From the NCBI GenBank assembly GCA_019635485.1, contig JAHBZL010000011.1:56988-120987 (forward strand): a stretch of 64,000 bases of DNA, written 5' to 3'. Every line of letters starts with the position of its first letter. Position 1 is the stretch's first letter. The notes under the pieces were generated by a model. It had not been told where the DNA came from. It saw nothing but the letters and a program-made list of their open reading frames with translations, and did not search any database. The position numbers and the translations under genes are program-made. Positions 3,252 through 28,101 of the stretch are shown here, piece by piece. This stretch comes from Piscinibacter sp. GTDB lineage: Bacteria; Pseudomonadota; Gammaproteobacteria; Burkholderiales; Burkholderiaceae_C.

Positions 3252-3259
3252 CCGACCCC

Positions 3260-4228
3260 TCACTCGACCACCACCACGCCGTAGGGCACGCGCCCGACCG
3301 GGATGCTCTTGATCGCCTTGGCGCCGGCCACGTCGACCACCGTGACGTCGTCGGACAGGCCGTTGACCACCCACAGGCGCGCCTCGGCCTTGTCGAGCGC
3401 GACGTTCCAGGCCCGCCGCCCCACCAGGACGAGGTCGGTCACCTTGCGCGCCGCGACGTCGACGAAGGCCACGTGGTTGGCCCGGCCCAGCGCGACGAAG
3501 GCACGCTTGCCGTCCTTCGTCAGCGTGATGCCGACCGGCGAGATGTCCTCGGCGCGCGCGCCCTTCACGGTGAACCGCAGCGTCGCGACCACCTCGTGGC
3601 TGGCGGTCGAGACGACACTCACGCTCGCGTCCAGCTCGTTCGTGACCCAGAGTTCCTTGCCGTCCGGCGTGATCGCCATGCGGCGCGGCCGCTTGCCGAC
3701 CTTGACGTTCCTGACCACCTTGCCCTGCGCCACGTCGATCACGTGCACGAGGCTGGCGACCTCGGAGGTCACGTACAGCGTCTTGCCGTCCGCGCTGACC
3801 TTCACGCCCTCCGGTTCCTGGCCGACCTTGATCGACTTCAGCACCTTGCCGGTGGCGGCATCGACGAAGCTGGCCTCGGCCTCGTCCTCGTTGGAGACGT
3901 AGATCGTCTTGCCGTCCGGCGACAGGTCGAAGGCCTCCGGCTCGTCGCCCAGCGGCAGGCGCCGCACCGCCTTGGCCGTGGCCGGATCGATCACGTCCGC
4001 CGCGTTGGAATCGGTGCAGGCCACCATCAGCAGCCCGTCGGGCATGCGCTGGAGGTGGCGGGCGCGCTTGCAGGTCGGCACAGTGCCCTTGACGGTCAGC
4101 GTCTGGGTGTCGATCAGCGTCAGCGCATCGTCCTTCTCGCTGCTGACCCAGGCGGTGCCCTGGGCGGTAGCCAGGGCCGAGCAGCCGGCCAGGCCGAGGG
4201 CGGCGGCGATGCGGCGGGGCGTCTTCAA
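3260..4228 (-). CDS. YVTN beta-propeller protein of the PQQ-associated ABC operon
   Basis: The 322-residue secreted protein has a signal peptide followed by repeated blades of the YVTN type, for example SPDGKTIYVSNEDE, SADGKTLYVTSE and TPDGKELWVTNE. It matches the beta-propeller family that accompanies PQQ-dependent catabolism. It starts at a TTG (4228) preceded by AAGGAG at good spacing; no ATG is available near the signal peptide. A periplasmic scaffold or sensor role is likely, but no catalytic residues are evident. A second, related propeller lies in the xoxF-side cluster at 11634-12581. Confidence 0.88.
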   Translation of the reverse strand: MKTPRRIAAALGLAGCSALATAQGTAWVSSEKDDALTLIDTQTLTVKGTVPTCKRARHLQRMPDGLLMVACTDSNAADVIDPATAKAVRRLPLGDEPEAFDLSPDGKTIYVSNEDEAEASFVDAATGKVLKSIKVGQEPEGVKVSADGKTLYVTSEVASLVHVIDVAQGKVVRNVKVGKRPRRMAITPDGKELWVTNELDASVSVVSTASHEVVATLRFTVKGARAEDISPVGITLTKDGKRAFVALGRANHVAFVDVAARKVTDLVLVGRRAWNVALDKAEARLWVVNGLSDDVTVVDVAGAKAIKSIPVGRVPYGVVVVE

Positions 4229-4260
4229 GCGTCGTTCTCCTTCTTCGCGTCGTCGTCGGA

Positions 4261-5001
4261 TCAGCTCGTGCGGGCGATGAAGCCGGCCTCGAGCGTGGCG
4301 CCGCCCAGCGCCGTCGTGACCTCGGCGGGCGCGCCGTCGGCCAGCAGCCGGCCCTTGTGCAGCACCAGCACACGGTCGGCATCGGCCGCCTCCTCGACCC
4401 AGTGGGTGGCCCACAGCACCGTGACGCCGCGCTCGCGGACGTCCGAATGCAGCGCGGCCAGCAGGTCCTGGCGCGACTTCGGGTCGAGTCCGACGGTGGC
4501 CTCGTCCATCAGCAGCACCGCGGGTTGGTGCAGCTGGGCCCGGATCAGTTCCACCTTGCGCCGGTTGCCGCCCGACAGCTCGCGCACCTTGCGGCCGAGC
4601 TGGTCCGAGAGTCCGAAGCGCGCGGCGCCGGCCGCGATGCGCTCGTCGGCCAGGGCACCGGGCAGGCCGTGCAGGTCCGCCTGGAACCGCAGGTTGCGCC
4701 GGATGCTGAGGTCGAGGTCCAGCGAGATCTGCTGGAACACCACGCCGATGTGGCGCAGCGCCGCCGACGACGCGTGGCGCAGCGAGTAGCCGGCCACCTC
4801 GACCTCGCCCTCGTCGGCGGCGAACAGGCCGGTCAGCACCTGGAACAGCGTCGACTTGCCCGCGCCGTTCGGCCCGAGCAGCGCCACGAAGCTCGCGGGC
4901 GCGAGATCGATCGACAGCGACTGCAGCGCGGCCTGCTTGCCGTAGCGCTTGGTCAAGGCCGAGATCCGCAGCATGGCCGGGGCGCTCACGGGTTCGCTCA
5001 T
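4261..5001 (-). CDS. ABC transporter ATP-binding protein, PQQ alcohol dehydrogenase system
   Basis: The 246-residue cytoplasmic ATPase has a Walker A motif (GPNGAGKST, about residue 43), a Q-loop region (VVFQQ), the signature LSGGNRRK, a Walker B (VLLMDEAT) and a switch histidine (WATHW). This is the ABC-2 exporter subclass that pairs with the permease at 1174-2109. It is the first gene of the minus-strand operon and starts at ATG 5001. Its promoter must lie in the 560-base region shared with xoxF. Known homologues sit beside PQQ alcohol dehydrogenases and are thought to move alcohol-related compounds, PQQ or another accessory; the substrate is unproven. Confidence 0.93.
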   Translation of the reverse strand: MSEPVSAPAMLRISALTKRYGKQAALQSLSIDLAPASFVALLGPNGAGKSTLFQVLTGLFAADEGEVEVAGYSLRHASSAALRHIGVVFQQISLDLDLSIRRNLRFQADLHGLPGALADERIAAGAARFGLSDQLGRKVRELSGGNRRKVELIRAQLHQPAVLLMDEATVGLDPKSRQDLLAALHSDVRERGVTVLWATHWVEEAADADRVLVLHKGRLLADGAPAEVTTALGGATLEAGFIARTS

Positions 5002-5203
5002 CGTTCGGTCGGTGCAGGCGTGCGCAAGATGTCGTGGACGATAACGGAGGTGGACGAGCAAGCGTCGGGCCCGGCCACGGCCCGCGATTGAAGGCGGTCG
5101 TGCGCGGCTCGGCAAGCGGGTGGATTCCCGCGTCGGGTCTTTGTCGGGCGGCTCGTTTCGACACGCCGGCCGTCGATGAAACACTCTGTGCCGATGTGGA
5201 TGC

Positions 5204-5561: not shown

Positions 5562-7382
5562 ATGCGAATTCCTGGGCAATCCGGTCGGCACGCCTGGTCG
5601 CGGGTGGGGCTGGCTCTTCTCGCGCTGCCGGGCCTGGCGCTGGCGAACGCGGACGTCGAGAAGAACATCGCCAACGACAAGAACTGGGCGATGCAAGCGG
5701 GTGACATGTACAACCAGCGCTACAGCAAGCTCAAGCAGATCAACACCGGCAACGTCGGCAAGATGCAGGTGGCGTGGACCTTCTCCACCGGCGTGCTGCG
5801 CGGCCACGAGGGCTCGCCGCTGGTGATCGACGGCACGATGTACCTGCACTCGCCGTTCCCGAACAAGGTCTTCGCGATCGACCTCGACACGCAGAAGATC
5901 AAGTGGAAGTACGAGCCGAAGCAGGACCCGGCGGTGATCCCGCAGATGTGCTGCGACACGGTGAACCGCGGCCTGGCGTACGCCGAAGGCAAGGTGATCC
6001 TGCAGCAGGCCGATTCGATGCTGGTCGCGCTCGACGCCAAGACCGGCAAGATGGTCTGGAGCACGAAGAACGGCGACCCGAAGCTCGGCGCGGTGAACAC
6101 CAATGCGCCGCACGTCTTCAAGGACAAGGTCATCACCGGCATTTCCGGCGGCGAGTGGGGCGTGCGCGGCTTCATCGCGGCGTACAACCTCTCCGACGGC
6201 AAGCTGGCGTGGAAGGGTTACAGCGTCGGCCCGGACAACGAGATGCTGATCGACCCGGACAAGACCATGACCTGGACCGACGGCAAGCTCGCGCCGGTCG
6301 GCAAGGACTCGTCGCTCAAGACCTGGCAGGGTGACCAGTGGAAGATCGGCGGCGGCACGACGTGGGGCTGGTACAGCTACGACAAGGCGCTGAACCTGAT
6401 GTACTACGGCACCGGCAACCCGTCGACCTGGAACCCGGCGCAGCGCCCCGGTGACAACAAGTGGTCGATGACCATCTTCGCGCGCGACGTCGACACCGGC
6501 ATGGCCAAGTGGGTCTACCAGATGACGCCGTACGACGAGTGGGACTTCGACGGCATCAACGAGATGATCCTGGCGGACATCGACGTCAAGGGCAAGGCGA
6601 CCAAGGCGCTGGTGCACTTCGACCGCAACGGCTTCGCGTACACGATGGACCGCACCAACGGTGCTCTGCTCGTGGCCGAGAAGTACGACCCGAAGGTGAA
6701 CTGGGCCACGCACGTCGACATGAAGACGGGCCGCCCGCAGGTGGTCGCGAAGTACTCAACGGCCAAGAACGGTCCTGACGTCAACACCAAGGGCATCTGC
6801 CCGGCGGCGTTGGGCAGCAAGGACCAGCAGCCGGCCGCGTTCGACCCCGAGACCAAGCTCTTCTACGTGCCGACCAACCACGTCTGCATGGACTACGAGC
6901 CGTTCAAGGTCGAGTACACCGCCGGACAGCCGTACGTCGGTGCGACGCTGTCGATGTTCCCGGCCCCGGGCAGCCACGGCGGCATGGGCAACTACATCAC
7001 GTGGAATGCCGGCACCGGCAAGATCGTGCAGAGCAAGGCGGAGAAGTTCTCGGTGTGGAGCGGCGCGCTCAACACCGCGGGCGGTCTGTCCTGCTACGGC
7101 ACGCTCGAGGGCTACCTGAAGTGCGTCGACAAGAAGAACATCGAGAAGGAACTTTTCAAGTTCAAGACGCCCTCAGGGATCATCGGCAACGTGTTCTCCT
7201 ACGAGCACAAGGGCAAGCAGTACATCGGCGTGTTCTCGGGCATCGGCGGCTGGGCCGGCATCGGCATGGCCGCGGGTCTCGAGAAGGACACTGATGGCCT
7301 GGGCGCCGTGGGTGGCTACCGCGAGCTGAACCAGTACACCGAACTGGGCGGATCGCTGACCGTGTTTGCATTGCCGAACTGA
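5562..7382 (+). CDS. xoxF: Lanthanide-dependent PQQ methanol dehydrogenase XoxF
   Basis: The 606-residue precursor oxidises methanol (and probably formaldehyde) in the periplasm using PQQ and a rare-earth ion, passing electrons to cytochrome XoxG. A signal peptide of about 28 residues ends LALA. The PQQ-ring disulfide is the adjacent pair Cys130-Cys131 (MCCDTVNRG). The metal/catalytic motif reads [10 protein letters not shown], giving Asp328 and the extra Asp330 that marks lanthanide enzymes; calcium MxaF enzymes carry alanine there. Propeller tryptophan-docking repeats run throughout. The start follows AAGGAG at seven bases. It heads xoxFGJ. No small subunit gene is present, as expected for XoxF. 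Identification is very secure. Confidence 0.98.
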
Positions 7383-7488: not shown

Positions 7489-7875
7489 ATGCTTCGGAAG
7501 TCATTGCTGGTCCTTGCCTGCCTTGCCGCCACCACGGCCGCCTTCGCCGACGACAAGCTGTACACCGTCGTGGACGGCTACAAGGTCGACCCGGAGACCA
7601 TGAAGGGCTTCCGCACCTGGCGGCAGGCCGCCTGCGACCGCTGCCACGGCGCCAACCAGGAAGGGCTGGTCGGGCCGTCGCTGGTGAACAGCCTGAAGAC
7701 GCTGACCAAGGAAGAGTTCATCAAGACCGTGCGCGACGGCCGGCTCGAGAAGGGCATGCAGAGCTTCGGCACGAGCAAGGTGGTGATGGACAACATCGAT
7801 CACCTGTACGCCTACCTGAAGGGGCGCTCGGACGGCGCGATCACGCGCGCCAAGGTCGAGCCCATCTCGCAATGA
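7489..7875 (+). CDS. xoxG: XoxG, c-type cytochrome electron acceptor of XoxF
   Basis: The 128-residue periplasmic monohaem cytochrome has a 20-residue signal peptide (ends AAFA), a haem site CDRCH (Cys49, Cys52, His53) and a likely axial Met90 in EKGMQSFG. It accepts electrons from XoxF. Of two in-frame ATGs (7477 and 7489) I chose the second: AAGGA lies about 11 bases before it, whereas it abuts the first. Its stop overlaps the xoxJ start as ATGA. Order and size match XoxG rather than the longer MxaG. Confidence 0.93.
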   Translation: MLRKSLLVLACLAATTAAFADDKLYTVVDGYKVDPETMKGFRTWRQAACDRCHGANQEGLVGPSLVNSLKTLTKEEFIKTVRDGRLEKGMQSFGTSKVVMDNIDHLYAYLKGRSDGAITRAKVEPISQ

Positions 7876-8729
7876 CGGCCACCTGCAGCCGCGTTGCACT
7901 GGCCGCGGCGCTGGCGCTGGCGGCCGCAGCCGCCCCGGCGCAGGATGCGCCGGCTGCGCGCCAGGCGCTGCGCGTCTGCCAGGACCCGAACAACCTGCCC
8001 TTCTCCAACACCCGCGGCGAGGGCATCGAGAACCGCATCGCCGAGGTGTTCGGCCAGGCGCTGAACCTGCCCGTCACGTACTACTCGTTCCCGCAGCGGC
8101 TCGCGTTCATCCGCAACACGCTGCGCTACAAGCTGCCCGGCCAGGACTATCCGTGCGACATCGTGATGGGCGTGCCGCTCGGCTTCGACCAGGTGTCGGT
8201 CACCAAGCCCTACTACCGCTCCACCTACGCCCTGGTGTTCGCGGAGGGCAAGGGCATGGACCAGGTGCGCACCGGCGATGATTTCCTCGCGCTCGAGCGC
8301 AGCAAGCTCGACTCGCTGCGCATCGGCATCTACGACCGCTCGCCGGCCTCGGAGTGGCTCAGCAAGCACGGCCTGGTCGAGCGTGGCGTGCCCTACAAGA
8401 TCATGAACGCCGACCCGGCGCAGTACCCCGGCGAGATCATCGAGCGGGATCTCGCGTCCGGCCAGATCGACGCCGCGATCGTCTGGGGTCCGATCGCCGG
8501 CTACTTCGCCAAGCGCGTCAAGACCCCGGCGCTGCGCGTCGTGCCGCTGAAGTCCGAGCCAGGCGTGAAGTTCGACTTCCAGATGGCGATGGGGGTGCGC
8601 TATGGCGAGCGCGAATGGAAGCAGCAGGTCGAGGGCCTGATCGCTGCCAAGCAGCCCGAGATCCAGGCGATCCTGCGCGAGTACGGTGTGCCGCTGGTCG
8701 ACGAGTCCTACGCCGCAGCCGGAAAGTGA
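7872..8729 (+). CDS. xoxJ: XoxJ, periplasmic binding protein of the XoxF system
   Basis: The 285-residue protein has a signal peptide and a type II solute-binding fold, with the family start ALRVCQDPNNLPFSN and the later QIDAAIVWGPIAGYFAK. XoxJ/MoxJ proteins are needed for XoxF maturation or activation; a large hydrophobic groove suggests interaction with the dehydrogenase rather than transport. Translation is coupled to xoxG by an ATGA overlap. The assignment is firm; the molecular function is known only in outline for the family. Confidence 0.93.
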   Translation: MTATCSRVALAAALALAAAAAPAQDAPAARQALRVCQDPNNLPFSNTRGEGIENRIAEVFGQALNLPVTYYSFPQRLAFIRNTLRYKLPGQDYPCDIVMGVPLGFDQVSVTKPYYRSTYALVFAEGKGMDQVRTGDDFLALERSKLDSLRIGIYDRSPASEWLSKHGLVERGVPYKIMNADPAQYPGEIIERDLASGQIDAAIVWGPIAGYFAKRVKTPALRVVPLKSEPGVKFDFQMAMGVRYGEREWKQQVEGLIAAKQPEIQAILREYGVPLVDESYAAAGK

Positions 8730-8754: not shown

Positions 8755-9735
8755 ATGAAATTCGCGTCCTGCCTGCTGACCGCCGCGCTGGCCCTGCCGG
8801 CCGCCGGCGGGGCGCGGGCGTCCGTCGCCGAGCCGGCCACCGTCGTGGCGCTGTCGGCCAGCGTGCTTCGCATCGAGGCGCCGCGCGAACTGGGCGGCTT
8901 CGCGATCGGCTCGGCAGTGGTGGTGGCGCCGGAACGTGTCGTGACCAACTGCCACGTGACGCGCGACGCGCGCGAGATCCAGGTCGTGCGCGGCGGTGCG
9001 CGCTGGCTGGCCACGGCCCAGGCCGCCGACGTGGAGCGCGACCTGTGCCTGCTGAAGGTGCCTGGCCTCGTCGCGACGCCGGTGCGGCTCGGGCGCACCG
9101 GCGAGCTGGCCATCGGCCAGCCGGTGGCCGCGCTCGGCTACACCGGCGGGGTCGGCCTGCAGACCAGCCGCGGCCGCGTGATCGAACTGCACCACCACGA
9201 CGGCGGCCGGGTGATCCAGTCGAGCAACTGGTTCAGTTCCGGAGCGAGCGGCGGCGGACTGTTCGATGCCGGCGGCGCGCTGCTGGGCGTCCTGACGTTC
9301 CGCCTGCGCGGCGGCGACGCGCACTACTTCGCCGCCCCGGTCGAATGGGTGCGCGACCTGCTCGACGAGCAACGCCACCAACCCTTTGCGGACATCGCGC
9401 CGCTGCGTTCGCGGCCGCCCGCCTACTGGCAGCAGCCGACGCGGACGCAGCCGCGCTTCCTGCGCGCTGCAGTACTGCAACGCGACGCCCAGTGGGGCGA
9501 ACTCGCGCTGCTGGCGCACGACTGGCTGCAGCGCGACGCCGACGACGCCGAACCCTGGCACCTGCTCGGCACGGCGCTGGAGCGGCTGGACCGGCCCTCG
9601 GAGGCCCGCATGGCACTCGAATGCTCGCTGCACCTGGCGCCAGCACACGGCACCGTGCGGGCGCAGCTCGAATCGCTGCGCGGCCGCATCGACGAACCCG
9701 CGGCGGCCGGCGGCTGCCGCCCCGATCGGCACTGA
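8755..9735 (+). CDS. Secreted trypsin-like serine protease with C-terminal helical repeats
   Basis: The 326-residue protein has a signal peptide and an S1C/trypsin-like domain with a full triad: His67 in VTNCHVT, Asp96 in VERDLCLL and Ser165 in SGASGGGLF. After about residue 240 comes a TPR-like helical tail. No PDZ domain is seen, unlike DegP/DegQ. It lies 25 bases after xoxJ and opens the run of accessory secreted proteins. A job in processing or quality control of the methanol-oxidation proteins is an inference from position only. Confidence 0.82.
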   Translation: MKFASCLLTAALALPAAGGARASVAEPATVVALSASVLRIEAPRELGGFAIGSAVVVAPERVVTNCHVTRDAREIQVVRGGARWLATAQAADVERDLCLLKVPGLVATPVRLGRTGELAIGQPVAALGYTGGVGLQTSRGRVIELHHHDGGRVIQSSNWFSSGASGGGLFDAGGALLGVLTFRLRGGDAHYFAAPVEWVRDLLDEQRHQPFADIAPLRSRPPAYWQQPTRTQPRFLRAAVLQRDAQWGELALLAHDWLQRDADDAEPWHLLGTALERLDRPSEARMALECSLHLAPAHGTVRAQLESLRGRIDEPAAAGGCRPDRH

Positions 9736-9741
9736 CTCACC

Positions 9742-10410
9742 ATGCGCGTACCGTGGACCGTCACCGCCCTGCTGATCGCCCTCGCGGCCGGGTCGGCGTC
9801 GGCCGCGGAGGACTTCTCCGCCGCCGAGCGGGCCATCTTCCTGACCAACCATCTCGCGACACTGAAGCCGCCCGTGACGCTGCGCTACACCTTCCGCAAG
9901 TCGGGCAGCCTGGAGGCCGGCTTCGAGGATCCGGTGGCCGTCCACCTGCGCGCCCAGCCCGACGGAGCCTGCTGCGCGGCCGCGGCCGAGTTCCTCGCCG
10001 GCCCGCGCCGGCTCAGCCTGCCGGACGTGGAGGCGGCGCAGGGCAACCCGGTGATCCTGTACTTCCTCGAGCGCGACATCCGCGAGATGAACCGGCTCAC
10101 GAAAGGCCAGGCCGCCTACTTCCGCAAGCGCATCCGGATGGCCGTCTACCGCGGCGCGACGGAGCAGGCGGTGCAGGTCGGCTACGGCGGAAAGACGATC
10201 GCGGCGCGCCAGTTCACGATCGCCCCCTACCTCGACGATCCGCTGCGCCCGCGCTTCGAGAAGCTGGCGGGCAAGACCTACGTCTTCACGCTGTCCGAGG
10301 CCGTGCCCGGCGGCGTCTACTCGGTGCGCGCACGCGTCGACGGCCCGTCCCCCGGCGCCCCGCTGCTGCTCGAGGAGATGCTCGTCGACGGCGCCACGCG
10401 CAACCCCTGA
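9742..10410 (+). CDS. Uncharacterised secreted protein of the xox cluster
   Basis: The 222-residue protein has a clear signal peptide (ends ASAAE near residue 23) and no membrane segment afterwards. I do not recognise the family. A CC pair lies in DGACCAAAAEF, and the rest looks like a mixed alpha/beta domain with a beta-rich C-terminus. It begins seven bases after the protease stop and is followed 13 bases later by a small cysteine-containing secreted protein, so it is almost certainly cotranscribed with the xox genes. Function unknown. Confidence 0.78.
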   Translation: MRVPWTVTALLIALAAGSASAAEDFSAAERAIFLTNHLATLKPPVTLRYTFRKSGSLEAGFEDPVAVHLRAQPDGACCAAAAEFLAGPRRLSLPDVEAAQGNPVILYFLERDIREMNRLTKGQAAYFRKRIRMAVYRGATEQAVQVGYGGKTIAARQFTIAPYLDDPLRPRFEKLAGKTYVFTLSEAVPGGVYSVRARVDGPSPGAPLLLEEMLVDGATRNP

Positions 10411-10423
10411 ACCCGACCACCCC

Positions 10424-10780
10424 ATGACCACCATCACCCGCTCGACCCTGCTTGCCTGCGTCCTGCTCGCCGCTGCCGGCCTGACCCGGGCGAACGACTT
10501 CCCGACCGTCGACCGCGTGCTCTACGTGCACGAGTGCATGCGCAACCACCCGGGCCCGCACTTCGAGATGGTCAACAAGTGCTCCTGCGCGCTCGACCGC
10601 CTCGCCGACGAGGTCAAGTACGAGGACTACGTGAGCATGTCCACGATCGCGAACGCGATCTCGATCGGCGGCGAGCGCGGCAACGATTTCCGCGACAACG
10701 AGACGCTCAAGCCGCAGCTGCAGCGCTGGCGCGGCCTGCAGGCCAAGGTGCAGAAGGCCTGCTTCATCGGGCCGCAGTAA
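10424..10780 (+). CDS. Small secreted four-cysteine protein of the xox cluster
   Basis: The 118-residue precursor has a signal peptide of about 23 residues and a mature part of about 95 residues. Its cysteines lie in HECMRN, NKCSCALD and KACF, enough for two disulfides. It is charged and soluble, with no haem motif and no similarity I can see to MxaI. The position among quinoprotein accessory genes suggests a periplasmic partner. Family and function are unknown. Confidence 0.75.
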   Translation: MTTITRSTLLACVLLAAAGLTRANDFPTVDRVLYVHECMRNHPGPHFEMVNKCSCALDRLADEVKYEDYVSMSTIANAISIGGERGNDFRDNETLKPQLQRWRGLQAKVQKACFIGPQ

Positions 10781-10797
10781 CGCCCCGGAGCCGCACG

Positions 10798-11637
10798 ATG
10801 GTCCCGGCCCTGCGCCGCCTCCTCGCCCTGCTCGCGCTGCTGTGGCTGCTGCCGCTCGCCGCGTCGGCCGCGACGCTGAAGCCCGACGACGACCCGGCCG
10901 CGAGCCCGGTGTGGCTGAAGGTGCGCGCCAGCCTGTTCGGCGACCGGCCGATCCGCGCGGCGCCGCCCGAACTGCTGCGTCTGGAGGCTCCATCCCGTGC
11001 CGTCGATGCGGCCGTGGTGCCGATCGCGATCCGCAGCCGGCCGCCGACCGGGGCCAGCTGGCACGTCAGCAAGCTGTACCTGGTGATCGACGCCAATCCG
11101 TCGCCGATCTCGGCGATCTTCGGTTTCACGCCGGACAGCGGGCGTGCCGACATCGAGACCCGTGTGCGCGTCGACGACTACTCGCACGTGCGGGCGATCG
11201 CCGAGACCAGCGACGGCCAGCTGCTGATGACCACCCGCTTCGTGAAGGCCTCCGGCGGCTGCTCCGCGCCGGCCGGTGCGGACGCGGTGGCGGCACAGGC
11301 CTCGCTCGGCCAGATGCGCTTCCGCATCGACGGTGACCTGAAGGGCCGCGAGCCGGTGCAGGCCCAGCTGGCCATCGAGCACCCCAACCACTCCGGGCTC
11401 GCGATGGACCAGGCCACGCGCCAGTACACGCCGGCCCATTACGTGCGCAAGATCGACGTCACCTACGCGGGCCGGCCGGTGCTGACGGCCGACGTCGACT
11501 TCTCGATGAGCGAGAACCCGAACTTCCGCTTCTACTTCGTGCCGCAGAGCGACGGCGGCGAGTTGCGTGCCACGGTGGTGGACTCGAGGGACCTGCGATT
11601 CGTCGCCGCCCAGGCGCTGCGCGACACGCCGAAATGA
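10798..11637 (+). CDS. Quinoprotein-associated SoxYZ-like carrier, copy 1
   Basis: The 279-residue secreted protein resembles a SoxY half (about 30-160) fused to a SoxZ half (about 170-275). In SoxY, sulfur intermediates ride on a cysteine in a GGC arm at the C-terminus; here the equivalent SGGCSAP (Cys155) sits at the junction of the two halves. Such fusions are known as quinoprotein dehydrogenase-associated carriers but their cargo is unproven. The ATG follows CCGGAG. The stop overlaps the next propeller gene as ATGA. A paralogue is encoded at 14131-14964. Confidence 0.85.
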   Translation: MVPALRRLLALLALLWLLPLAASAATLKPDDDPAASPVWLKVRASLFGDRPIRAAPPELLRLEAPSRAVDAAVVPIAIRSRPPTGASWHVSKLYLVIDANPSPISAIFGFTPDSGRADIETRVRVDDYSHVRAIAETSDGQLLMTTRFVKASGGCSAPAGADAVAAQASLGQMRFRIDGDLKGREPVQAQLAIEHPNHSGLAMDQATRQYTPAHYVRKIDVTYAGRPVLTADVDFSMSENPNFRFYFVPQSDGGELRATVVDSRDLRFVAAQALRDTPK

Positions 11638-12581
11638 GTCTCCAGCATGCCGCCGCCGCGCTGGGATTCGCCGTCGCGGCGGCCCAGGCTGCGCCGTTCG
11701 CCTACATCACCAACCAGGGCAGCCACGACGTTTCGGTGATCGACCTGGCGCGCGACGAAGTCGTGGCCACGGTGCCGGTCGGGCGCTCGCCGGCCGGCGT
11801 CGTCGCGTCGAGCCGTGCGGCCCGCGTGTACGTCTCCAACCCGGACGACCGCACGATCTCGGTGATCGACATGCGCACGCAGCGCCTGGTCGACACGCTG
11901 CCGGCGGGCGCCGGCCCGGTCGGCCTGGATGCCTCGCCCGACGGCACGCGCGTGTACGTCGCCGACTGGTACCGCAACCGCCTGCTGGTGCTGGACACGC
12001 AGCGGCGCGACGCGGCGCCGCTCGAGATCCCGGTCGGCCGCGCGCCGGCCGGCGTGGCGGCGGATCCGGACGGCCGCAGCGTCTACGTCGCCGAGCGCGA
12101 CGACGACAGCGTTGCGGTGGTCGACCTGGCGACGCGGCGCGTCCGCGCGCGTGTGGCGGTCGGCTCGCACCCGTTCGCGCTGCTGCTGGACGCGCCGCGG
12201 CAGCGCCTGTACGCACTGAACGTGCAGAGCGACGACGTGAGCGTGGTCGACCTGCGCACGCTGGCCGTCGCGGCGACGGTGAAGGTCGGCCGCGCACCCT
12301 ACGGCGCGGCGCTCGCGCGCGGCGGCGAACTGCTGTACGTGACCAACCAGCACGCCGACAGTGTCAGCGTGCTCGACGCCGGCTCGCTGCGCGTGCTGCG
12401 CACGCTGCCCGGCTTCGGCTACCCCGAAGGCATCGCGGCGCACGGCGACCGCGTCTACGTCGTCAACTGGATGGACGACGACGTCAGCGTGCTCGACGCG
12501 GCCAGCGGGCGCACGCTCGAACGCATCGCCGCCGGCCGCAACAGCCGCGGGTTCGGGGCCTTCATCGGTGCCCCGGACTGA
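11634..12581 (+). CDS. YVTN beta-propeller protein of the xox cluster
   Basis: The 315-residue secreted protein contains about seven YVTN-type blades (FAYITNQGSHDVSVID, RVYVSNPDDRTISVID, LLYVTNQHADSVSVLD and others), enough for one closed propeller. It has a signal peptide and no catalytic motif. It is coupled by ATGA to the upstream SoxYZ-like carrier. Its relation to the propeller in the divergent ABC operon suggests two copies of one scaffold type serving the same periplasmic system. Confidence 0.88.
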   Translation: MSLQHAAAALGFAVAAAQAAPFAYITNQGSHDVSVIDLARDEVVATVPVGRSPAGVVASSRAARVYVSNPDDRTISVIDMRTQRLVDTLPAGAGPVGLDASPDGTRVYVADWYRNRLLVLDTQRRDAAPLEIPVGRAPAGVAADPDGRSVYVAERDDDSVAVVDLATRRVRARVAVGSHPFALLLDAPRQRLYALNVQSDDVSVVDLRTLAVAATVKVGRAPYGAALARGGELLYVTNQHADSVSVLDAGSLRVLRTLPGFGYPEGIAAHGDRVYVVNWMDDDVSVLDAASGRTLERIAAGRNSRGFGAFIGAPD

Positions 12582-12621
12582 CGTTCCCCGACGATTTCGA
12601 CACCAACCCAGGAGACCCCGT

Positions 12622-13155
12622 ATGTCCTTCCCCTCCCGGCGCGCGCTGCTCGGCGGCGCGCTCGGCCTGCTGATCGCGGCCGGCGCCGCGGCGCACGGCC
12701 CGACGCGCCAGAAGGTGACCGAGCAGGTCACGATCGACGCCCCCGCCGCCAACGTGTGGGGGCGCATCCGCAACTTCGACGCACTGAAGGACTGGCACCC
12801 GGCCGTGGCCCAGAGCCCCGCCGACAAGGGCAACGAGGTGGGCTCGGTGCGCCAGCTCGAGCTGAAAGGCGGCGGCGCCCTGACCGAGACGCTCGAGGCC
12901 TACGACGACGCCAGGATGCGCTACAGCTACCGCGCCAAGAACGGCGGCGCGCTGCCGGTGACCAACTACACCTCGACGATCAGCGTGAAGGCGGATGGCA
13001 ACCGTTCCATCGTCGAGTGGCGCGGCGCGTTCTACCGCGGCTACCCGAACAACGATCCGCCGCCGGACCAGAACGACGAGGCCGCGGTGGCCGCTATCAC
13101 CGGCGTCTACCAGGCCGGGCTGGCGAACCTGAAGAAGATCGTCGAGGCGAAGTAG
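12622..13155 (+). CDS. MxaD-like SRPBCC periplasmic protein
   Basis: The 177-residue protein has a signal peptide with twin arginines (SRRALLGG) and an SRPBCC (START/Bet v1-like) domain, with VTIDAPAANVWGRIRNFDALKDWHP typical of the fold start. MxaD, a member of this family, is reported to aid electron transfer between methanol dehydrogenase and its cytochrome. Here it would serve XoxF-XoxG. The start follows CAGGAG at good spacing. It lies between the propeller and the metallo-beta-lactamase-fold gene. The MxaD assignment rests on fold and context. Confidence 0.8.
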   Translation: MSFPSRRALLGGALGLLIAAGAAAHGPTRQKVTEQVTIDAPAANVWGRIRNFDALKDWHPAVAQSPADKGNEVGSVRQLELKGGGALTETLEAYDDARMRYSYRAKNGGALPVTNYTSTISVKADGNRSIVEWRGAFYRGYPNNDPPPDQNDEAAVAAITGVYQAGLANLKKIVEAK

Positions 13156-13165
13156 GCAGCGCGCG

Positions 13166-14134
13166 ATGCGAGGCTGGTGGCGCGCCTGGCTGGCGCTTGT
13201 CGGGTTGGGGCTGCTCGCGGGCCTGGGCGGCTGCGCGAGCGTCGGGCTGCGCGGGCCGCGCCCGGTGGCCGTGGCCCCGGGCGTCTACATGGTCCCGGGT
13301 GCGCCGGGCGCGGCGGATGAGCACAACCTCGGCCGCATCGGCAACAGCGGCTTCATCGTCGGGCCGACCGGCGTGATCGCGGTCGACACCGGCACCTCGC
13401 GCGCGCACGGCGAGGCGCTGCTCGCCGCGATCGCGACCGTGACGGACCAACCGGTGCGCCTCGCGCTGGTCACCCACGTGCGGCCGGAGTTCCTGTTCGG
13501 CGGCACGGCCTTCCAGGCCCGCGGCATCCCGGTCGAGATGCACGCACGCAGCGCGACGCTGATGGCCTCGCGCTGCGAAACCTGCCTGAAGACGCTGCGC
13601 CAGACCGCCGGCGCCGCGGCGATGCAGGGCACGGTGGTCTACAAGCCGGACCGCACCTTCGAGGCCTCGTTCGAGACGACGCTGATCGGCCGCCCGGTGC
13701 GCGTGCTGCACTTCGGCCACTCCAGCGGGCCGGGCGACATCGCGGTGCTCGACGTCGGCAGCGGCGTGCTGTTCGCCGGCGGCCTGCTCGACGTGCAGCG
13801 TGTGCCCGACATCCAGGACAGCGACCTGCCCGGCTGGAAACGCGCGCTCGCCGCGCTGCGCGCGCTGCGGCCGGTCACCGTGGTGCCGGGGCACGGCCGG
13901 GCCGACGCCGGCGCCGCGACGATCGCGGCGGTCGATACCTATCTGCAGCGGCTCGAGGACAAGGTACGCTCGCTGGTGGAAGCGGGCGGTTCGCTGATCA
14001 ACGTCTCCGACGCCGCCGAGTTGCCGGACTACGAGCACTGGGACCAGTACGACATCATCCACCGCCGCAATGCCTCGGTGGCCTTCCTGCGCTTCGAACG
14101 CGAGCTGATCTTCAAGCCGGAGCCGACGCGATGA
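13166..14134 (+). CDS. Metallo-beta-lactamase-fold lipoprotein with degenerate metal site (quinoprotein relay hydrolase-like)
   Basis: The 322-residue protein has a lipoprotein-type signal (LGGC, Cys23) and a metallo-beta-lactamase fold resembling SoxH-like quinoprotein relay hydrolases. The metal motif THxHxDH is changed to THVRPEF: His104 remains, while the next three ligands are Arg106, Glu108 and Phe109. The bridging aspartate of FxGD is Gly206 (FAGGLL). His185 (FGHSSG) and His243 (PGHG) remain. A CETC pair (Cys137, Cys140) is present. It may be a binding or thiol protein rather than a zinc hydrolase. Its stop overlaps the next gene by four bases. Confidence 0.82.
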   Translation: MRGWWRAWLALVGLGLLAGLGGCASVGLRGPRPVAVAPGVYMVPGAPGAADEHNLGRIGNSGFIVGPTGVIAVDTGTSRAHGEALLAAIATVTDQPVRLALVTHVRPEFLFGGTAFQARGIPVEMHARSATLMASRCETCLKTLRQTAGAAAMQGTVVYKPDRTFEASFETTLIGRPVRVLHFGHSSGPGDIAVLDVGSGVLFAGGLLDVQRVPDIQDSDLPGWKRALAALRALRPVTVVPGHGRADAGAATIAAVDTYLQRLEDKVRSLVEAGGSLINVSDAAELPDYEHWDQYDIIHRRNASVAFLRFERELIFKPEPTR

Positions 14135-14964
14135 ACCTGCCCCGCCCCTCCCGCCGCCGCGCCCTCGGATGGCTCGCGGCCGCCGCCGCCCCCCTGCCCG
14201 CCTGGGCCGCAGAAGGCGGCCTGCCCTCGGCTCGCCACGAGGACTCCTCGCCCGAATGGGAGCGCCTCGCGGCCCGACTGTTCCCCGGCCGCACGCTGCG
14301 CGCCGGGCGCGACGTGGTGCAGCTCGTCGTGCCGCTGCGCGCCGCCTATGGCGCCTCGGTGCCGGTCAAGATCGTGTCGCAGCTGCCGCAGACGCCGCAG
14401 CGCTACGTGCGCAAGCTGTGGCTGGTGGTGGACAAGAACCCCTCCCCGGTGGCGGCGGTGCTCGACCTCAGCACGGAGATCGGACAGGCCGACTTCGAGA
14501 CCCGCCTGCGCGTCGACGAGTACAGCCACGTGCGCGTGGTCACCGAGCTGTCCGACGGCACGCTGCACACCGACTCGCGCTACGTGAAGACCTCCGGCGG
14601 CTGCTCCGCCCCGCCGAACCGCGAGGCGCTGCACCTGATCGGCAAGACCATCCTGAAGCTGCCCGCCGGTGTGCACCTGAACCAGCCGACCGCGGCGGAC
14701 GTGACGGTGGTGCATCCGAACGACACCGGCTTCGAGCTGAACCAGGTGACGGTGATGTACATCCCGCCGCACTTCGTGCGCTCGATCAAGGTCAGCTTCG
14801 CCGGCCGCAAGGTGTTCGACGCCGACCTGGACTTCTCCGTCAGCGAGAACCCCACGCTGCGCTTCAATTTTGTGCCGCACGGCGACGGCGAACTGCGCGC
14901 CGAGGTGACCGACTCGAAGGACGGCCACTTCGTCGGCACGCTCCCGGTGTCGGCCGCCACTTGA
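14131..14964 (+). CDS. Quinoprotein-associated SoxYZ-like carrier, copy 2
   Basis: The 277-residue protein has an SRRRALGWL signal that may direct Tat export. It is a fused SoxY/SoxZ-like protein with the carrier cysteine in TSGGCSAP (Cys158). It shares many blocks with copy 1 (VIDANPSP/VVDKNPSP, FSxSENPxxRFxFVP) and is clearly its paralogue. It sits between the metallo-beta-lactamase-fold lipoprotein and a CxxC thioredoxin-fold protein, an order reminiscent of sox thiol-carrier systems. The cargo is unknown; SoxXA, SoxB and SoxCD are not visible. Confidence 0.85.
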   Translation: MNLPRPSRRRALGWLAAAAAPLPAWAAEGGLPSARHEDSSPEWERLAARLFPGRTLRAGRDVVQLVVPLRAAYGASVPVKIVSQLPQTPQRYVRKLWLVVDKNPSPVAAVLDLSTEIGQADFETRLRVDEYSHVRVVTELSDGTLHTDSRYVKTSGGCSAPPNREALHLIGKTILKLPAGVHLNQPTAADVTVVHPNDTGFELNQVTVMYIPPHFVRSIKVSFAGRKVFDADLDFSVSENPTLRFNFVPHGDGELRAEVTDSKDGHFVGTLPVSAAT

Positions 14965-14972
14965 ACCTGCCG

Positions 14973-15500
14973 ATGCGGCGCCGCGACGCGTTTGCGCTGC
15001 CCCTGCTGCTCGCCGTGGCCGGGCCGGCGGCGGCGATCGGGCTGCCGCCGCGCTACGGCGCCACGGTGATCCGCCCGCAAGGCGCGCCCGAACGCTACGA
15101 GTTCGACCTCGGCGCCGCGCTGCAGCGCGCACGCGCCGAGAACAAGCGCCTGTACGTCTACCTCGGCGCCGACGACTGCCCGTTCTGCCGCAAGTACGAG
15201 GCCTTCCTCGACAAGAACGCCGACGCGCTGCTGCCGCACTTCCGCAAGGAATGGCTGCTCGTGGACCTGCGCAGCAGCCTGAAGGTGCAGGCGGACCGGC
15301 TGCGCTTCCGCATCGGCGAGCAGTCGTGGTCGTATGCCGAGTTCATGCGCCACCTGCGCGACGAGCGCGTCCGCCAGCTCGTCTACCCGAGCGTCTGGCT
15401 GTTCGACGGCGAGGGCCGCACACTGATGCAGATGCCGGCCGGCACCGGCACCTTCGAAACCGTGCCCGAACAGCTCGAGATCCTGCACCTCGAGAACTAG
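14973..15500 (+). CDS. Secreted thioredoxin-fold protein with CxxC (SoxW-like)
   Basis: The 175-residue precursor has a signal peptide (ends GPAAA) and a thioredoxin-like domain with the active site DDCPFCRKYE (Cys69, Cys72). The family recalls SoxW or small periplasmic reductases that keep a carrier cysteine reduced. The start is ATG 14973; an in-frame TTG at 14961 overlaps the previous stop and is possible. It lies right after the second SoxYZ-like carrier, so reduction of that carrier's cysteine is a reasonable guess. Confidence 0.85.
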   Translation: MRRRDAFALPLLLAVAGPAAAIGLPPRYGATVIRPQGAPERYEFDLGAALQRARAENKRLYVYLGADDCPFCRKYEAFLDKNADALLPHFRKEWLLVDLRSSLKVQADRLRFRIGEQSWSYAEFMRHLRDERVRQLVYPSVWLFDGEGRTLMQMPAGTGTFETVPEQLEILHLEN

Positions 15501-15589
15501 CACCAGCGCGCCGCGCCGCTTGACGCAACGCAACGGCGGCCCGCGCGGCGCTGCCGAGAATCCGGGCGACAGCGGCGAGGAGCGAGCGC

Positions 15590-16201
15590 ATGACGACGAA
15601 GTTCTGGGGCAGCCTGTGCGCCGCGCTGCTGTTCGTGCCGGCGGCCCGCGCGGCCGGCCACGACGAGGACCTGCAGGTGCAGCGCGCAGTGCAGGTCTGC
15701 GCGAGCTGCCATGGCGACTACGGCCGCAGCGCCGATTCGCGCTATCCCGCGCTGGCGGGCCAGACGCGCGACTACCTGATCCGCCAGCTGACCGACTTCC
15801 GCGAGCAGAAGCGCTCGGAGACGGACGTGCAGGCCTACATGTGGGGCATCTCCGCGCTGCTCAGCGACGCCACGATCGCCGGTCTGGCGGACTACTACGC
15901 GCGCCAGGAAGCGCGGCCCGGCGCGCCGGTTCAAGCAGGGCTGCAGGCCGACGGGCGCGCGATCTTCGAACGCGGCCTGCCGGCGCAGGGCGTGCGCGCC
16001 TGTGCCGCTTGCCACGGCCAGGGCGCGGAGGGCGCCGCCGGCTTCCCGCGCCTGGCCGGCCAGCATGCGGACTACCTCGTGCGCCAACTGAAGGCCTTCC
16101 GCACGCCGCTGCGCCCGCACGGCGTGGTGATGAAGAAGGAGACGCGGGCCCTGACCGAGGCGCAGATGCGCGCCGTGGCCAGCTACCTTCAGTCGCTCTG
16201 A
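15590..16201 (+). CDS. Dihaem c-type cytochrome, cytochrome c4-like
   Basis: The 203-residue secreted protein has two haem sites, CASCH (Cys37, Cys40, His41) and CAACH (Cys138, Cys141, His142), in duplicated domains. Each is followed by a PALAGQ/PRLAGQ-like motif typical of cytochrome c4/c553. It would move electrons from the periplasmic oxidation system to a terminal oxidase. A GAGGAG ribosome site precedes the ATG. Its 3' end overlaps the convergent pqqE gene by 13 bases. Confidence 0.9.
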   Translation: MTTKFWGSLCAALLFVPAARAAGHDEDLQVQRAVQVCASCHGDYGRSADSRYPALAGQTRDYLIRQLTDFREQKRSETDVQAYMWGISALLSDATIAGLADYYARQEARPGAPVQAGLQADGRAIFERGLPAQGVRACAACHGQGAEGAAGFPRLAGQHADYLVRQLKAFRTPLRPHGVVMKKETRALTEAQMRAVASYLQSL

Positions 16202-17331
16202 GCGGCGGCGAGCCGGCGCGATGCGGCTGGCTCGCGGAATACCAGCGGATGTTCGACCGGGGCCGTGGCGACATGCTCGCCGCGCTCGGCGCGTTCGACC
16301 GCTTCCTGCACGCGCGCGTGGTGCGGGCTCTTGCGGCACACCGGGTCGGCCGCGGCCGGGTCATGCGCGATCAGCCAGGCCTGGCAGCGGCAGCCGCCGA
16401 GGTCCTCTTCCTTGTGCTCGCAGCTCGCGCAGGGCTCCTTCATCCAGCCCGTGCCGCGGTAGCGGTTGAAGCCCTCGGACTCGAGCCAGATCTCGCGCAG
16501 CCCGGCCGAGCGCACGTTCGGGAAGCTCAGCCCCGGCAGCATCTTCGCGGTGTGGCAGGGCAGCGCGGTGCCGTCGGGCGTGACGGTCAGGAACATGCTG
16601 CCCCAGCCGTTGACGCACTTCTTCGCGCGGCCCTCGTGATAGTCCGGTGCGACGAAGAAGAGGCGCATGCGCTCGCCCAGCTTGCGCCGCCAGTCGTCGG
16701 TCACCGCCTCCGCGCGCACGAGCTGCTCGCGCGTGGGGAGCAGCTGGTCGCGGTTCAGGAAGGCCCACGAGTAGTACTGGGTGTTCGCGAGTTCCAGGTA
16801 CTCGGCGCCGAGTTCGGCAGCCATGCCGATGATGCGGTCGATGTGGTCGATGTTGAGCCGGTGGATGACGACGTTCATCACCATCGGCCAGCCTTGCGCC
16901 TTGATGATCTTCGCCACGCGGTTCTTGAGCTCGAAGGTCCGCGTGTGCGAGAGGAAGTCGTTCATCTCGCGCGTCGAGTCCTGGAACGACAGCTGCACGT
17001 GGTCCAGTCCGGCCGCCTTCAAGGCCGCGGCGCGCTGCTCGGTCAGCCCGACGCCGGAGGTCAGCAGGTTGGTGTAGTAGCCGAGGCGGCGCGCCTCGGC
17101 CACGATCACCTCGAGGTCGTCGCGCAGCAGCGGCTCGCCGCCGGACAGGCCGCACTGCACGGCACCGAGTTCGCGCCCCTCGCGCAGCACGCGCAGCCAG
17201 TCATCCGTCGACAGCTCCTCGGGCTGCGCCGCGAAGTCCAGCGGGTTGTAGCAGAACACGCAGTGCAGCGGGCACCGGTACGTGAGCTCGGCGAGCAACC
17301 ACAGCGGTGGCCCGATCGTCGCGCCGGTCAT
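16189..17331 (-). CDS. pqqE: PqqE, radical SAM PqqA cross-linking enzyme
   Basis: The 380-residue cytoplasmic enzyme links a glutamate and a tyrosine of PqqA, the first step of PQQ synthesis. It has the radical-SAM motif CPLHCVFC (Cys20, Cys24, Cys27), the SGGEPLLR motif, and a C-terminal SPASM region with cysteines for auxiliary iron-sulfur clusters (CVNGWG, PCHT, EPCASCEHKEEDLGGC). It starts four bases after pqqD and is the last gene of pqqABCDE. Confidence 0.97.
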   Translation of the reverse strand: MTGATIGPPLWLLAELTYRCPLHCVFCYNPLDFAAQPEELSTDDWLRVLREGRELGAVQCGLSGGEPLLRDDLEVIVAEARRLGYYTNLLTSGVGLTEQRAAALKAAGLDHVQLSFQDSTREMNDFLSHTRTFELKNRVAKIIKAQGWPMVMNVVIHRLNIDHIDRIIGMAAELGAEYLELANTQYYSWAFLNRDQLLPTREQLVRAEAVTDDWRRKLGERMRLFFVAPDYHEGRAKKCVNGWGSMFLTVTPDGTALPCHTAKMLPGLSFPNVRSAGLREIWLESEGFNRYRGTGWMKEPCASCEHKEEDLGGCRCQAWLIAHDPAAADPVCRKSPHHARVQEAVERAERGEHVATAPVEHPLVFREPAASRRLAAAQSD

Positions 17332-17335
17332 CGCC

Positions 17336-17605
17336 TCAATCCCAGACCAGCCAGCGCTGGCGGCCGGCCATCTCGACGAAGGCGTGCACGTCGCCTTCCA
17401 GTCCCGCTGCGCCGAAGGCCGACTCGAGCGCGCTGACGATGCCCGCCAGGTTGGCCTGCCCGTCGCAGCGTTTCATGATCTCCCCGGCGCTGCCGTTGAG
17501 CTTGACCATGCCCTCGGGATAGAGCAGCACGTAGGCTTCCTGGGCGGCTTCCCACTGCAGGCGCAGACCGGGAGCGACGCGCGGGCGGATGGCGGCGTCG
17601 ATCAT
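17336..17605 (-). CDS. pqqD: PqqD, PqqA-binding chaperone
   Basis: The 89-residue protein binds the PqqA peptide and presents it to PqqE. Family features include IRPRVAPGLRLQWE at the N-terminus, LLYPEGMVKLNGSAGEIM in the core and a helical C-terminus. It lies in order between pqqC and pqqE with four- and 28-base gaps. Length is normal. Confidence 0.95.
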   Translation of the reverse strand: MIDAAIRPRVAPGLRLQWEAAQEAYVLLYPEGMVKLNGSAGEIMKRCDGQANLAGIVSALESAFGAAGLEGDVHAFVEMAGRQRWLVWD

Positions 17606-17633
17606 GACCGCCCCTCGGCGAACGAGTGCGTTC

Positions 17634-18338
17634 TCACGGGTTCACCCCGTACTTCAGCGCCATCGCGTCGTTCATCGCCCAGAGGATGTCGAGCTTGAAC
17701 TGCAGCACTTCGAGCGCGCGCTCCTGCAGCGGCCGCGTCGTGAAGTGGTCCAGCGTGATCGCCAGGCCCTGCTCGACATCGCGCCGCGCCTGGCTGACGC
17801 GGTTGCGGAAGTAGGCCAGCCCGTCGGGCTCGATCCAGCGGTAGTGCTCGGGCCAGGTCGCCAGGCGCTGCTTGTGGATCTCCGGCGCGAACAGCTCGGT
17901 CAGCGACGAGCACACCGCCTCCTGCCACGGCGCGCGGCGCGCGAAGTTGACGTAGGCATCGACCGCGAAGCGCAGCGCGGGGATCACGTGGCGCTGGTCC
18001 TCGACCTCCGCGCGGGAGAGGCCGACCGCCTCGGCCAAGCGCAGCCAAGCCTCGATGCCGCCCGGATCCTTCACGCCGCCGATCTCGAAGCCGTCGTGGT
18101 CGAGGATGCGCTGCACCCAGCCGCGGCGCACCTCGCGGTCCGGGCAGTTGGACAGCACCGCCGCATCCTTCACCGGGATCGCGATCTGGTAGTAGAAGCG
18201 GTTCGCCACCCAGCCGCGCACCTGCTCCGGCGTGGCCTTGCCGGAGTTCAGCATCACGTTGAACGGGTGGTGGATGTGGTAGCTGCGGCCGCGCTCGCGC
18301 AGCTTGGCCTCGAATTCGTCGCGGGTCCAGGGCGTCAT
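17634..18338 (-). CDS. pqqC: PqqC, pyrroloquinoline-quinone synthase
   Basis: The 234-residue cofactor-free oxidase performs the final ring closure and eight-electron oxidation to PQQ. It belongs to the haem-oxygenase-like fold; conserved parts include RYYHHPF-type [24 protein letters not shown] and [11 protein letters not shown]. It starts four bases downstream of pqqB. Confidence 0.97.
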
Positions 18339-18342
18339 GGGC

Positions 18343-19263
18343 TCAGATCGTGATCGTCATGCCGTCCTCGCAGACCTCGATGCGGTGGCGCGCCAGTTGG
18401 GCGCGCTCCGCCGAGTCCTCGTCGAGGATGGGGTTGGTGTTGTTGACGTGGATGAGCAGGCGCCGCGTGCGCGCCGGCAAGCGATCCAGCCATTCGATCA
18501 TGCCGCCCGTGCCGGACTGCGGCAGGTGGCCGATGTCGCGCGCGGTCTTCTTCGACAGGCCGAGCCGGATCATCTCGTCGTCGGTCCAGAACGTGCCGTC
18601 GACCAGCACCGCATCGGCGCCGGCCATCAGGTCGAACAGGGCCGGCATGATCCCGCCGAGACCCGGCGCGTAGAACGCGCTGCGGCCGCTCGCCCGGTCG
18701 GCGATCAGCACGCCGATGTTGTCGCCCGGCACGGGCGCGTCGCGGTGCGGCGAGTACGGGGCGGCCTTGCTGTCCAGCGCGACGGCGCGCAGCGTCAGAC
18801 CGTCCGCGCCGCTCACTTCGAACGGCGTGCCGTCGGGCACGATGCGCTCGCGCCGCACGCCGCAGTAGTGGCCGAGCACCCGCAGCACCGGATTGCCCTG
18901 GCTCAGGTCCTGCTCGACCGGATCGGTGCACCACAGCGGCAGCGGCGAACCGCGTTCGCGCAGCATGAACAGCCCGGTGGCATGGTCGACCTGGCCGTCC
19001 ATCAGCACCACGCCGGCGATCGCCGTGTCGCGCACGGCGCGCGCCGGCTGCAACGCCGGGTTGGAACGGATCTGTTCGAGGATGTCCGGCGAGGCGTTGA
19101 AGAGCACGCCGTCGACGGCCGCATCACCGCGCACGAAGATCGAGGACTGCGTGCGCGACCTCGCGCGCACCGCACCGCTGCGCACGCCGGCGCAGTTGCG
19201 GCAGTTGCAGTTCCACTGCGGGAAGCCGCCGCCGGCGGCCGAGCCGAGCACCGTGATTCGCAT
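18343..19263 (-). CDS. pqqB: PqqB, metallo-beta-lactamase-fold PQQ biosynthesis protein
   Basis: The 306-residue protein has the typical start [16 protein letters not shown] and the metallo-beta-lactamase-like motif [12 protein letters not shown]. It carries CxCxxC cysteines (NCNCRNC). PqqB is proposed to hydroxylate the cross-linked Glu-Tyr intermediate. It lies 57 bases after pqqA in the operon. Confidence 0.96.
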
Positions 19264-27423: not shown

Positions 27424-27430
27424 CGCGATT

Positions 27431-27515
27431 CAAGCGGCCGCCGCGGTCCGGCTCCGCCGGTCCGCTGGCGGCGCCCCCCTGGGGGGGAGGCGCCGCAGCC
27501 GCTTCCGGGGGGGAG
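27431..27515. repeat. GC-rich intergenic hairpin element
   Basis: The gap between the fae paralogue and pabBC contains GCGGCGCC (27468-27475) paired with GGCGCCGC (27489-27496) around C6/G7 runs, flanked by tandem GGTCCGGCTCCGCCGG-type sequence. I recall such elements as common intergenic repeats in Burkholderiales. It may terminate or attenuate transcription into pabBC. Confidence 0.55.
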
Positions 27516-27520
27516 CCGTC

Positions 27521-28051: not shown

Positions 28052-28068
28052 GTCGTGGTGGCAGTGAG

Positions 28069-28096: not shown

Positions 28097-28101
28097 AAGG
28101 A

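Follow-up and report, generated by a model that had tools for sequence, protein, structure and literature searches.

Why should the genes of a methanol dehydrogenase be followed by relatives of the Sox thiol carrier? The question is raised by a 64,000-nucleotide stretch of Piscinibacter sp. DNA (the window; contig JAHBZL010000011.1), in which ten plus-strand open reading frames (ORFs), at 8755-16201, lie directly behind xoxFGJ. XoxF is a pyrroloquinoline quinone (PQQ) dehydrogenase, and the ten genes encode, among others, two fused SoxYZ-like carriers (SoxYZa and SoxYZb), a thioredoxin-like protein, a protein of metallo-beta-lactamase (MBL) fold, and members of two unnamed families that we call U118 and Q222. 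A sequence-only reading had taken the group for a quinoprotein relay, serving either as a carrier cycle for a one-carbon (C1) or sulfur adduct or as a thiol-based maturation path for XoxF. We found that the gene set recurs beside PQQ dehydrogenases, that its fused carriers occur independently of SoxB, and that its MBL protein belongs to a clade that has lost zinc ligands and carries a CxxC pair. Our preferred explanation, which we hold tentatively and with more doubt than confidence, is a XoxF accessory operon centred on a periplasmic thiol carrier whose adduct would be removed by thiol-disulfide exchange.

Conservation of the gene set and its link to PQQ dehydrogenases

Two sets of neighbourhoods were compared: 20 annotated loci (19 from the order and a second locus of the window's own genome) and 80 named loci retrieved by SoxYZ alignment, whose titles are mostly betaproteobacterial and among which Piscinibacter species are the closest relatives of the window by SoxYZ. 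Three groups of MBL proteins are distinguished, namely MBL_2 (TIGR04559-type), MBL_1 (TIGR04558-type) and a third, unnamed SoxH-like clade, MBL_B, to which the window protein belongs. The genes recur in the order xoxF-xoxG-xoxJ-(protease)-Q222-U118-(MBL_2)-SoxYZ-(propeller-MxaD-like)-MBL_B-(SoxYZb-thioredoxin-like)-(cytochrome), and in several loci the cluster faces pqqEDCB. Among 81 loci (the 80 named plus the window; some end at contig ends and some have SoxYZ and little else), XoxF was present in 51, Q222 in 42, U118 in 64, MBL_2 in 49 and MBL_B in 58; the counts for the protease, the MxaD-like protein, the propeller and the thioredoxin-like protein were 28, 31, 28 and 23. The clustering is more than chance, since XoxF, U118 and MBL_B are frequent, and in a recurring order, among these SoxYZ loci.

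Because SoxYZ was itself the query, the locus counts are biased, and 250 genomes of the order provide a less biased draw, in which relatedness between genomes makes p values overstate the evidence. Fused SoxYZ was present in 48 of them (58 genomes over the cut-off, less 10 in which SoxY and SoxZ occur only separated by a stop), 46 of which also encode a PQQ alcohol dehydrogenase over the cut-off, against only 13 of the 202 genomes without fused SoxYZ. The linkage with xoxF in related genomes, on which the sequence-only reading hung, is thus borne out. U118 was found in 29 genomes, 27 of them with a PQQ dehydrogenase; Q222 in 20, all with U118; and MBL_B (at least 250 bits) in 32, all with fused SoxYZ. 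Fused SoxYZ is missing from two genomes (G056 and G119) that encode Q222, U118 and a PQQ dehydrogenase, and from a third (G143) that encodes U118, so that U118 and Q222 track XoxF and not the carrier.

Variant arrangements were also seen. In Methyloversatilis and similar organisms (L074, L075, L079, L080, L083, L086, L090), MBL_2-SoxYZ is followed by divergent U118 and MBL_B; XoxF was not sighted in the fetched flanks, so that U118 and MBL_B stand together apart from xoxF. In Piscinibacter aquaticus (L031), xoxG, xoxJ, U118, MBL_B and pqqC each look split in two, possibly because of frameshift errors in the sequence. Six loci of the same phylum, outside the order (L121, L123-L127), have a U118-like ORF (76-82 bits) near MBL_2 and SoxYZ, and U118 therefore seems, from these matches, to reach beyond the window's order.

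The window XoxF is of the lanthanide type, with its TIGR03075 match (Table 1), vicinal cysteines (MCCDT) and the second aspartate of WDFDG, this residue of WDxD being what we take to be the lanthanide-type mark. The D-x-D motif was present in 66/66 dehydrogenases in the loci versus 33/40 unlinked ones (drawn from 108 listed); as the linked set was found using a XoxF profile and is biased, an association with lanthanide-type enzymes is suggestive only. The vicinal pair as a cause of the SoxYZ association was dropped as a candidate, since all 106 dehydrogenases compared contain it. Cysteines are conserved across the gene set: XoxF has the pair in 66/66, two further positions in 62/66 and two more in 46/66; XoxJ has two cysteines in 64/64, U118 four in 76/76 and the protease two in 38/38, and Q222 has, like XoxF, a vicinal pair (36/51 relatives). 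The thiol theme of the sequence-only reading gains strength from the invariant cysteines.

U118 and Q222 gave no credible Pfam or NCBIfam match (lone members at E 0.016 or worse) and no PDB sequence match at E 1. The U118 model (predicted local distance difference test score, pLDDT, 91.6) has five helices, and its best PDB fold comparison, at E 0.75, is no match.

The duplicated thiol carrier is as had been proposed. Both window proteins pass TIGR04557, combine SoxY and SoxZ domains (PF13501, PF08770) in one chain, and share a single arm cysteine that is invariant in 122/122 SoxYZ. Two carriers were present in all 23 loci having the thioredoxin-like gene, which in turn was present in 23 of the 25 two-carrier loci. 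On the carrier tree, 3 label changes suffice for the SoxYZb copies that neighbour the thioredoxin-like gene, against a shuffled mean of 21.4, and a single duplication likely lies behind them. With the Sox carrier SoxYZ (TIGR04488, TIGR04490) the window proteins have in common the SoxY and SoxZ domains and the arm cysteine; they differ in being fused, in having a GGCSAP arm inside the chain, in scoring under both cut-offs and in lacking any association with SoxB.

SoxB was found in 119 of the 250 genomes, in 23/48 with fused SoxYZ versus 96/202 without (odds ratio 1.02, p 1.0), and is lacking in 16 of the 32 MBL_B genomes; dependence of fused SoxYZ on Sox was rejected on this ratio. The proposal that the thiol set stands without SoxXA, SoxB and SoxCD is right for SoxB in this cluster, where none was found, and fails for the genome (5.0 Mb, 84% complete), which has SoxB (869.5 bits) on another contig, C2; neither SoxXA nor SoxCD was searched for. 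The C2 group, at about 26900-36200 (L001, L109, L116), comprises SoxB, a split SoxYZ and a SoxH-like MBL protein with an intact HxHxDH, and makes up a separate Sox-type set of this organism.

MBL_B, a zinc-less clade with a CxxC pair

The window MBL protein had been read as an MBL-fold lipoprotein. The fold is supported by a model of pLDDT 96.4, whose best Foldseek match, at E 1.1e-22 and a template modelling (TM) score of 0.80, is PDB 8d2z, a Burkholderia cenocepacia MBL superfamily protein of 23% identity; a lipobox-like LGGC stands at the N-terminus, and a crude pattern scored such a motif in 31/64 MBL_B matches. Identity with the named relay hydrolases did not hold up. TIGR04559 and TIGR04558, the quinoprotein relay system zinc metallohydrolases 2 and 1, share the fold and the kind of neighbourhood and represent clades related to MBL_B, but the window protein scores 190.9 bits against a cut-off of 280 for the former and 180.1 against 300 for the latter, and its zinc motif is missing.

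An alignment of 62 MBL_B, 54 MBL_2 and 4 MBL_1 proteins (short fragments, two MBL_B and one MBL_2, dropped) makes the loss explicit. At seven metal-site positions the window protein has H R E F S G H, where all 54 MBL_2 have H H D H H D H. Ligands are retained in 40, 0, 15, 11, 0, 5 and 42 of the 62 MBL_B at successive positions, at most four in any one protein, so that two of the seven are kept in none; three of the four MBL_1 retain just four. Conversely, a CxxC pair is present in 62/62 MBL_B, 0/54 MBL_2 and 0/4 MBL_1; MBL_2 has two invariant cysteines of its own (54/54), at other positions. In a 64-row tree a single branch separates each group from the rest (support 100/97 to 100/100). A role of the window protein as a working zinc thioesterase was rejected on the ligand loss. 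The residues of MBL_B do not resemble those of a zinc hydrolase; the protein would be a former one, with the zinc site lost and a CxxC pair gained. Across 299 genomes of the phylum, MBL_B above 250 bits was confined to the window's genus (2 genomes), and seven matches at 229-244 bits were zinc-type on inspection; the 250-bit line was set at a visible gap (252 to 234 bits), and some proteins at 225-234 bits may be divergent members.

In the window and its near relatives, moreover, the slot between U118 and SoxYZ has no MBL_2. When whole genomes were searched, no TIGR04559 match passed the cut-off in the window's 84%-complete genome, nor in any of 12 relatives lacking the slot copy, some of them metagenome-assembled genomes of no stated completeness; control genomes with MBL_2 in the slot gave a match in 4/4. 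The hydrolase step of the proposed carrier cycle is therefore contradicted for this cluster, and with the hydrolase gone the idea of a C1 cargo loses weight here. The genome does have an MBL_1 protein, adjoining a second dehydrogenase: on contig C7 (L026, 86001-105900), a second PQQ dehydrogenase locus has another fused SoxYZ and this TIGR04558-type MBL, and is a different variant of the same theme.

The thioredoxin-like protein has its CxxC in 23/23 sequences. Recognition as thioredoxin-like is weak: the window protein falls short of the Thioredoxin_7 gathering threshold, and all 21 alignment members match that model at E 0.01 or better (best 2.5e-8); a PDB sequence search returned no solved relative at E 0.001. 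Its gene was present in 15 of 18 loci without MBL_2 versus 7 of 40 with it; of the three exceptions, L038 and L082 are cut contigs and L093 is real. Compensation of the MBL_2 loss by the thioredoxin-like gene was considered and dropped, the tree showing no more than 3 and 4 changes, with 2 pairs that are independent.

Candidate functions of the operon

Neither the carrier nor its connection with PQQ dehydrogenases is new. Passages of a 2026 review (PMC12997753) describe, in the Pseudomonas putida ped cluster (PP_2666/PP_2677/PP_2678) and in Methylorubrum extorquens (META1p1703-1705, an operon that also has a thioredoxin-like gene), a fused SoxYZ-like carrier and a SoxH-like protein by a PQQ dehydrogenase, as here. 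The role proposed there is in maturation and redox or in PQQ protection, with disulfide formation, cofactor stabilisation and shielding of PQQ from sulfur nucleophiles as options. By that description the two systems include a rhodanese-like protein and a SoxH-like zinc metallohydrolase, unlike the window with its zinc-less CxxC relative, two carriers, U118 and Q222. The passages of PMC7391723 found by term search do not mention SoxYZ or thioredoxin, and we found no assigned reaction for the quinoprotein-associated SoxYZ system. What we regard as new, having found no prior report in the open-licence literature, are the CxxC clade without a zinc site, what appears to be a loss of the zinc paralogue MBL_2 and the independence from SoxB, together with the U118 and Q222 families, at which no search was aimed as such.

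In the accessory operon that we tentatively propose, the arm cysteine of fused SoxYZ would take up an adduct, and the likely exchange partners would be MBL_B, as a former zinc hydrolase with CxxC, and the CxxC thioredoxin-like protein. The cargo is likely an adduct of sulfur or disulfide type, which without the carrier would strike PQQ or the cysteines of XoxF. This supposes that the CxxC pairs are redox active, that they exchange with the SoxYZ arm and that the system acts on XoxF. Relatives could additionally unload the carrier hydrolytically through the zinc-competent MBL_2, an enzyme apparently lost in the window's clade. The proposal is closest to the review's PQQ protection from sulfur nucleophiles, to which it adds a concrete off-loading step. 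Its fullest form, in which an MBL zinc hydrolase turned CxxC protein empties the SoxYZ carrier by exchange, in a relay dedicated to a lanthanide methanol dehydrogenase and with U118 and Q222 taking part, appears to us doubtful.

Several observations weigh against this proposal. In the MBL_B model the CxxC (C115/C118) lies inside a helix (105-126). In thioredoxins the CxxC sits at the N-terminus of a helix, and the mid-helix position therefore makes redox activity of MBL_B uncertain. A carrier with one cysteine suits an acyl or C1 cargo equally well. The vicinal cysteines are present in all 106 dehydrogenases, including 40/40 without linked SoxYZ, so that the review's remark tying the set to adjacent-cysteine enzymes does not discriminate here. 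The coincidence of MBL_2 loss with the thioredoxin-like gene comes down to just 3 and 4 changes in the tree, and so adds no independent support; only 28 of the 79 fused-SoxYZ places have a listed dehydrogenase within 15 kb (on draft contigs, with at most a few dehydrogenases scored per genome), and 9 of the 32 MBL_B genomes lack U118. Finally, in passages of the review, P. putida mutants grown on alcohols without lanthanides showed minimal effects (PMC12997753).

The single thiol of the carrier would also suit a C1 cycle, in which formaldehyde made by XoxF would form an S-hydroxymethyl group on the SoxYZ arm. Oxidation of this group by XoxF would give an S-formyl thioester, from which an MBL hydrolase would free formate, as a protein-bound version of the glutathione route. 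Such a cycle would draw on the TIGR04559-type hydrolase that accompanies SoxYZ in 49/81 loci with its seven ligands intact in 54/54, and on the genome's want of any S-formylglutathione hydrolase match (TIGR02821) over the cut-off, in an assembly of the stated completeness. In part of PMC5934484, the xoxF5 cluster of a Roseobacter strain is depicted together with the glutathione-formaldehyde route genes soxH, adhI and gfa. Yet the window's clade, which has no TIGR04559 protein over the cut-off, retains the form that misses zinc ligands, an objection limited by the TIGR04558-type MBL elsewhere in the genome, and the conserved CxxC and the thioredoxin-like partner have no clear place in the cycle. 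We rank it below the exchange mechanism because a formyl group is less suited to reductive off-loading than a sulfur or disulfide adduct is, and judge it improbable for this operon.

Folding or maturation of XoxF, with the thioredoxin-like protein, MBL_B and U118 making or repairing its cysteine pairs and the protease in quality control, is a serious rival, though on balance an unlikely one. It would account for the conserved cysteine positions of XoxF, for the protease, Q222 and U118 behind xoxJ in many loci, and for the two genomes that have Q222, U118 and the dehydrogenase without fused SoxYZ. It leaves the SoxYZ carrier unexplained, however, and the presence of the vicinal pair in linked and unlinked dehydrogenases alike means that this pair does not in general call for a dedicated set. 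Residual Sox activity, the carriers supplying the host's thiosulfate-oxidising enzymes, could draw on the SoxB and split SoxYZ of contig C2; given the independence of fused SoxYZ from SoxB over the 250 genomes and the MBL_B genomes that lack SoxB, we hold it to be very improbable.

Layout in the window and wider significance

The sequence-only reading had described ten close same-strand genes after xoxJ with secreted or lipid-anchored products. All ten ORFs are present (starts refined by eye), separated, counting from XoxJ, by 25, 6, 13, 17, -4, 40, 10, -4, 8 and 89 bp, and the N-termini of their products look exported, as judged by eye. The two 4-bp overlaps, SoxYZa with the propeller and MBL with SoxYZb, suggest translational coupling. 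Coordinates are collected in Table 1.

Table 1. Genes of the xoxF region of the window, with the matches on which their names are based
Feature	Coordinates	Strand	Evidence and remarks
ATP-binding cassette (ABC) substrate-binding protein, propeller, ABC ATPase of PQQ-alcohol-dehydrogenase type	2091..5088	-	divergent; TIGR03864 319.7 bits, over cut-off; TIGR03863 358.8 bits, under cut-off 413.6; propeller identified by eye in ORF
XoxF, PQQ methanol/ethanol dehydrogenase	5562..7382	+	TIGR03075 718.6 bits, cut-off 480; vicinal Cys pair, WDFDG
XoxG, c-type cytochrome	7489..7875	+	behind xoxF; one CxxCH; TIGR03874 56.6 bits, under cut-off
XoxJ, periplasmic binding-like protein	7872..8729	+	TIGR03871 290.9 bits, cut-off 212
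Trypsin-like protease (Trypsin_2), TPR-like C-terminal part	8755..9735	+	PF13365 89.4 bits; TPR models under cut-off
Q222, 222-aa exported-looking protein, unnamed family	9742..10410	+	no credible Pfam/NCBIfam match
U118, 118-aa exported-looking helical protein, unnamed family	10424..10780	+	Cys pattern C...CxC...C
SoxYZa, fused SoxYZ-like carrier, GGC arm	10798..11637	+	TIGR04557 262.9 bits, cut-off 140
YVTN-type beta-propeller	11634..12581	+	TIGR02276 repeats; TIGR03866 221.8 bits, under cut-off 287.3
START/SRPBCC-fold protein (Polyketide_cyc2), labelled MxaD-like in the sequence-only reading	12622..13155	+	PF10604 117.4 bits
MBL_B, MBL-fold lipoprotein (lipobox-like), CxxC, without zinc site	13166..14134	+	PF00753 (Lactamase_B) 43.3 bits
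SoxYZb, fused SoxYZ-like carrier	14131..14964	+	TIGR04557 227.2 bits, cut-off 140
Thioredoxin-like protein, CPFC	14973..15500	+	Thioredoxin_7 24.0 bits, below gathering 27
Dihaem cytochrome c	15590..16201	+	PF00034 65.7 bits; two CxxCH
pqqE, pqqD, pqqC, pqqB	16189..19263	-	convergent; four NCBIfam equivalogs over cut-off

Lanthanide dehydrogenases commonly have the quinoprotein-associated SoxYZ system next to them, and two exported-looking families that no Pfam or NCBIfam model matched, U118 and Q222, are tied to XoxF. For MBL_B proteins the label 'metallo-hydrolase' would mislead. The swap of zinc for CxxC that defines their clade, together with the apparent natural loss of the zinc paralogue, makes it a testable question whether these carriers are emptied by hydrolysis or by thiol exchange.

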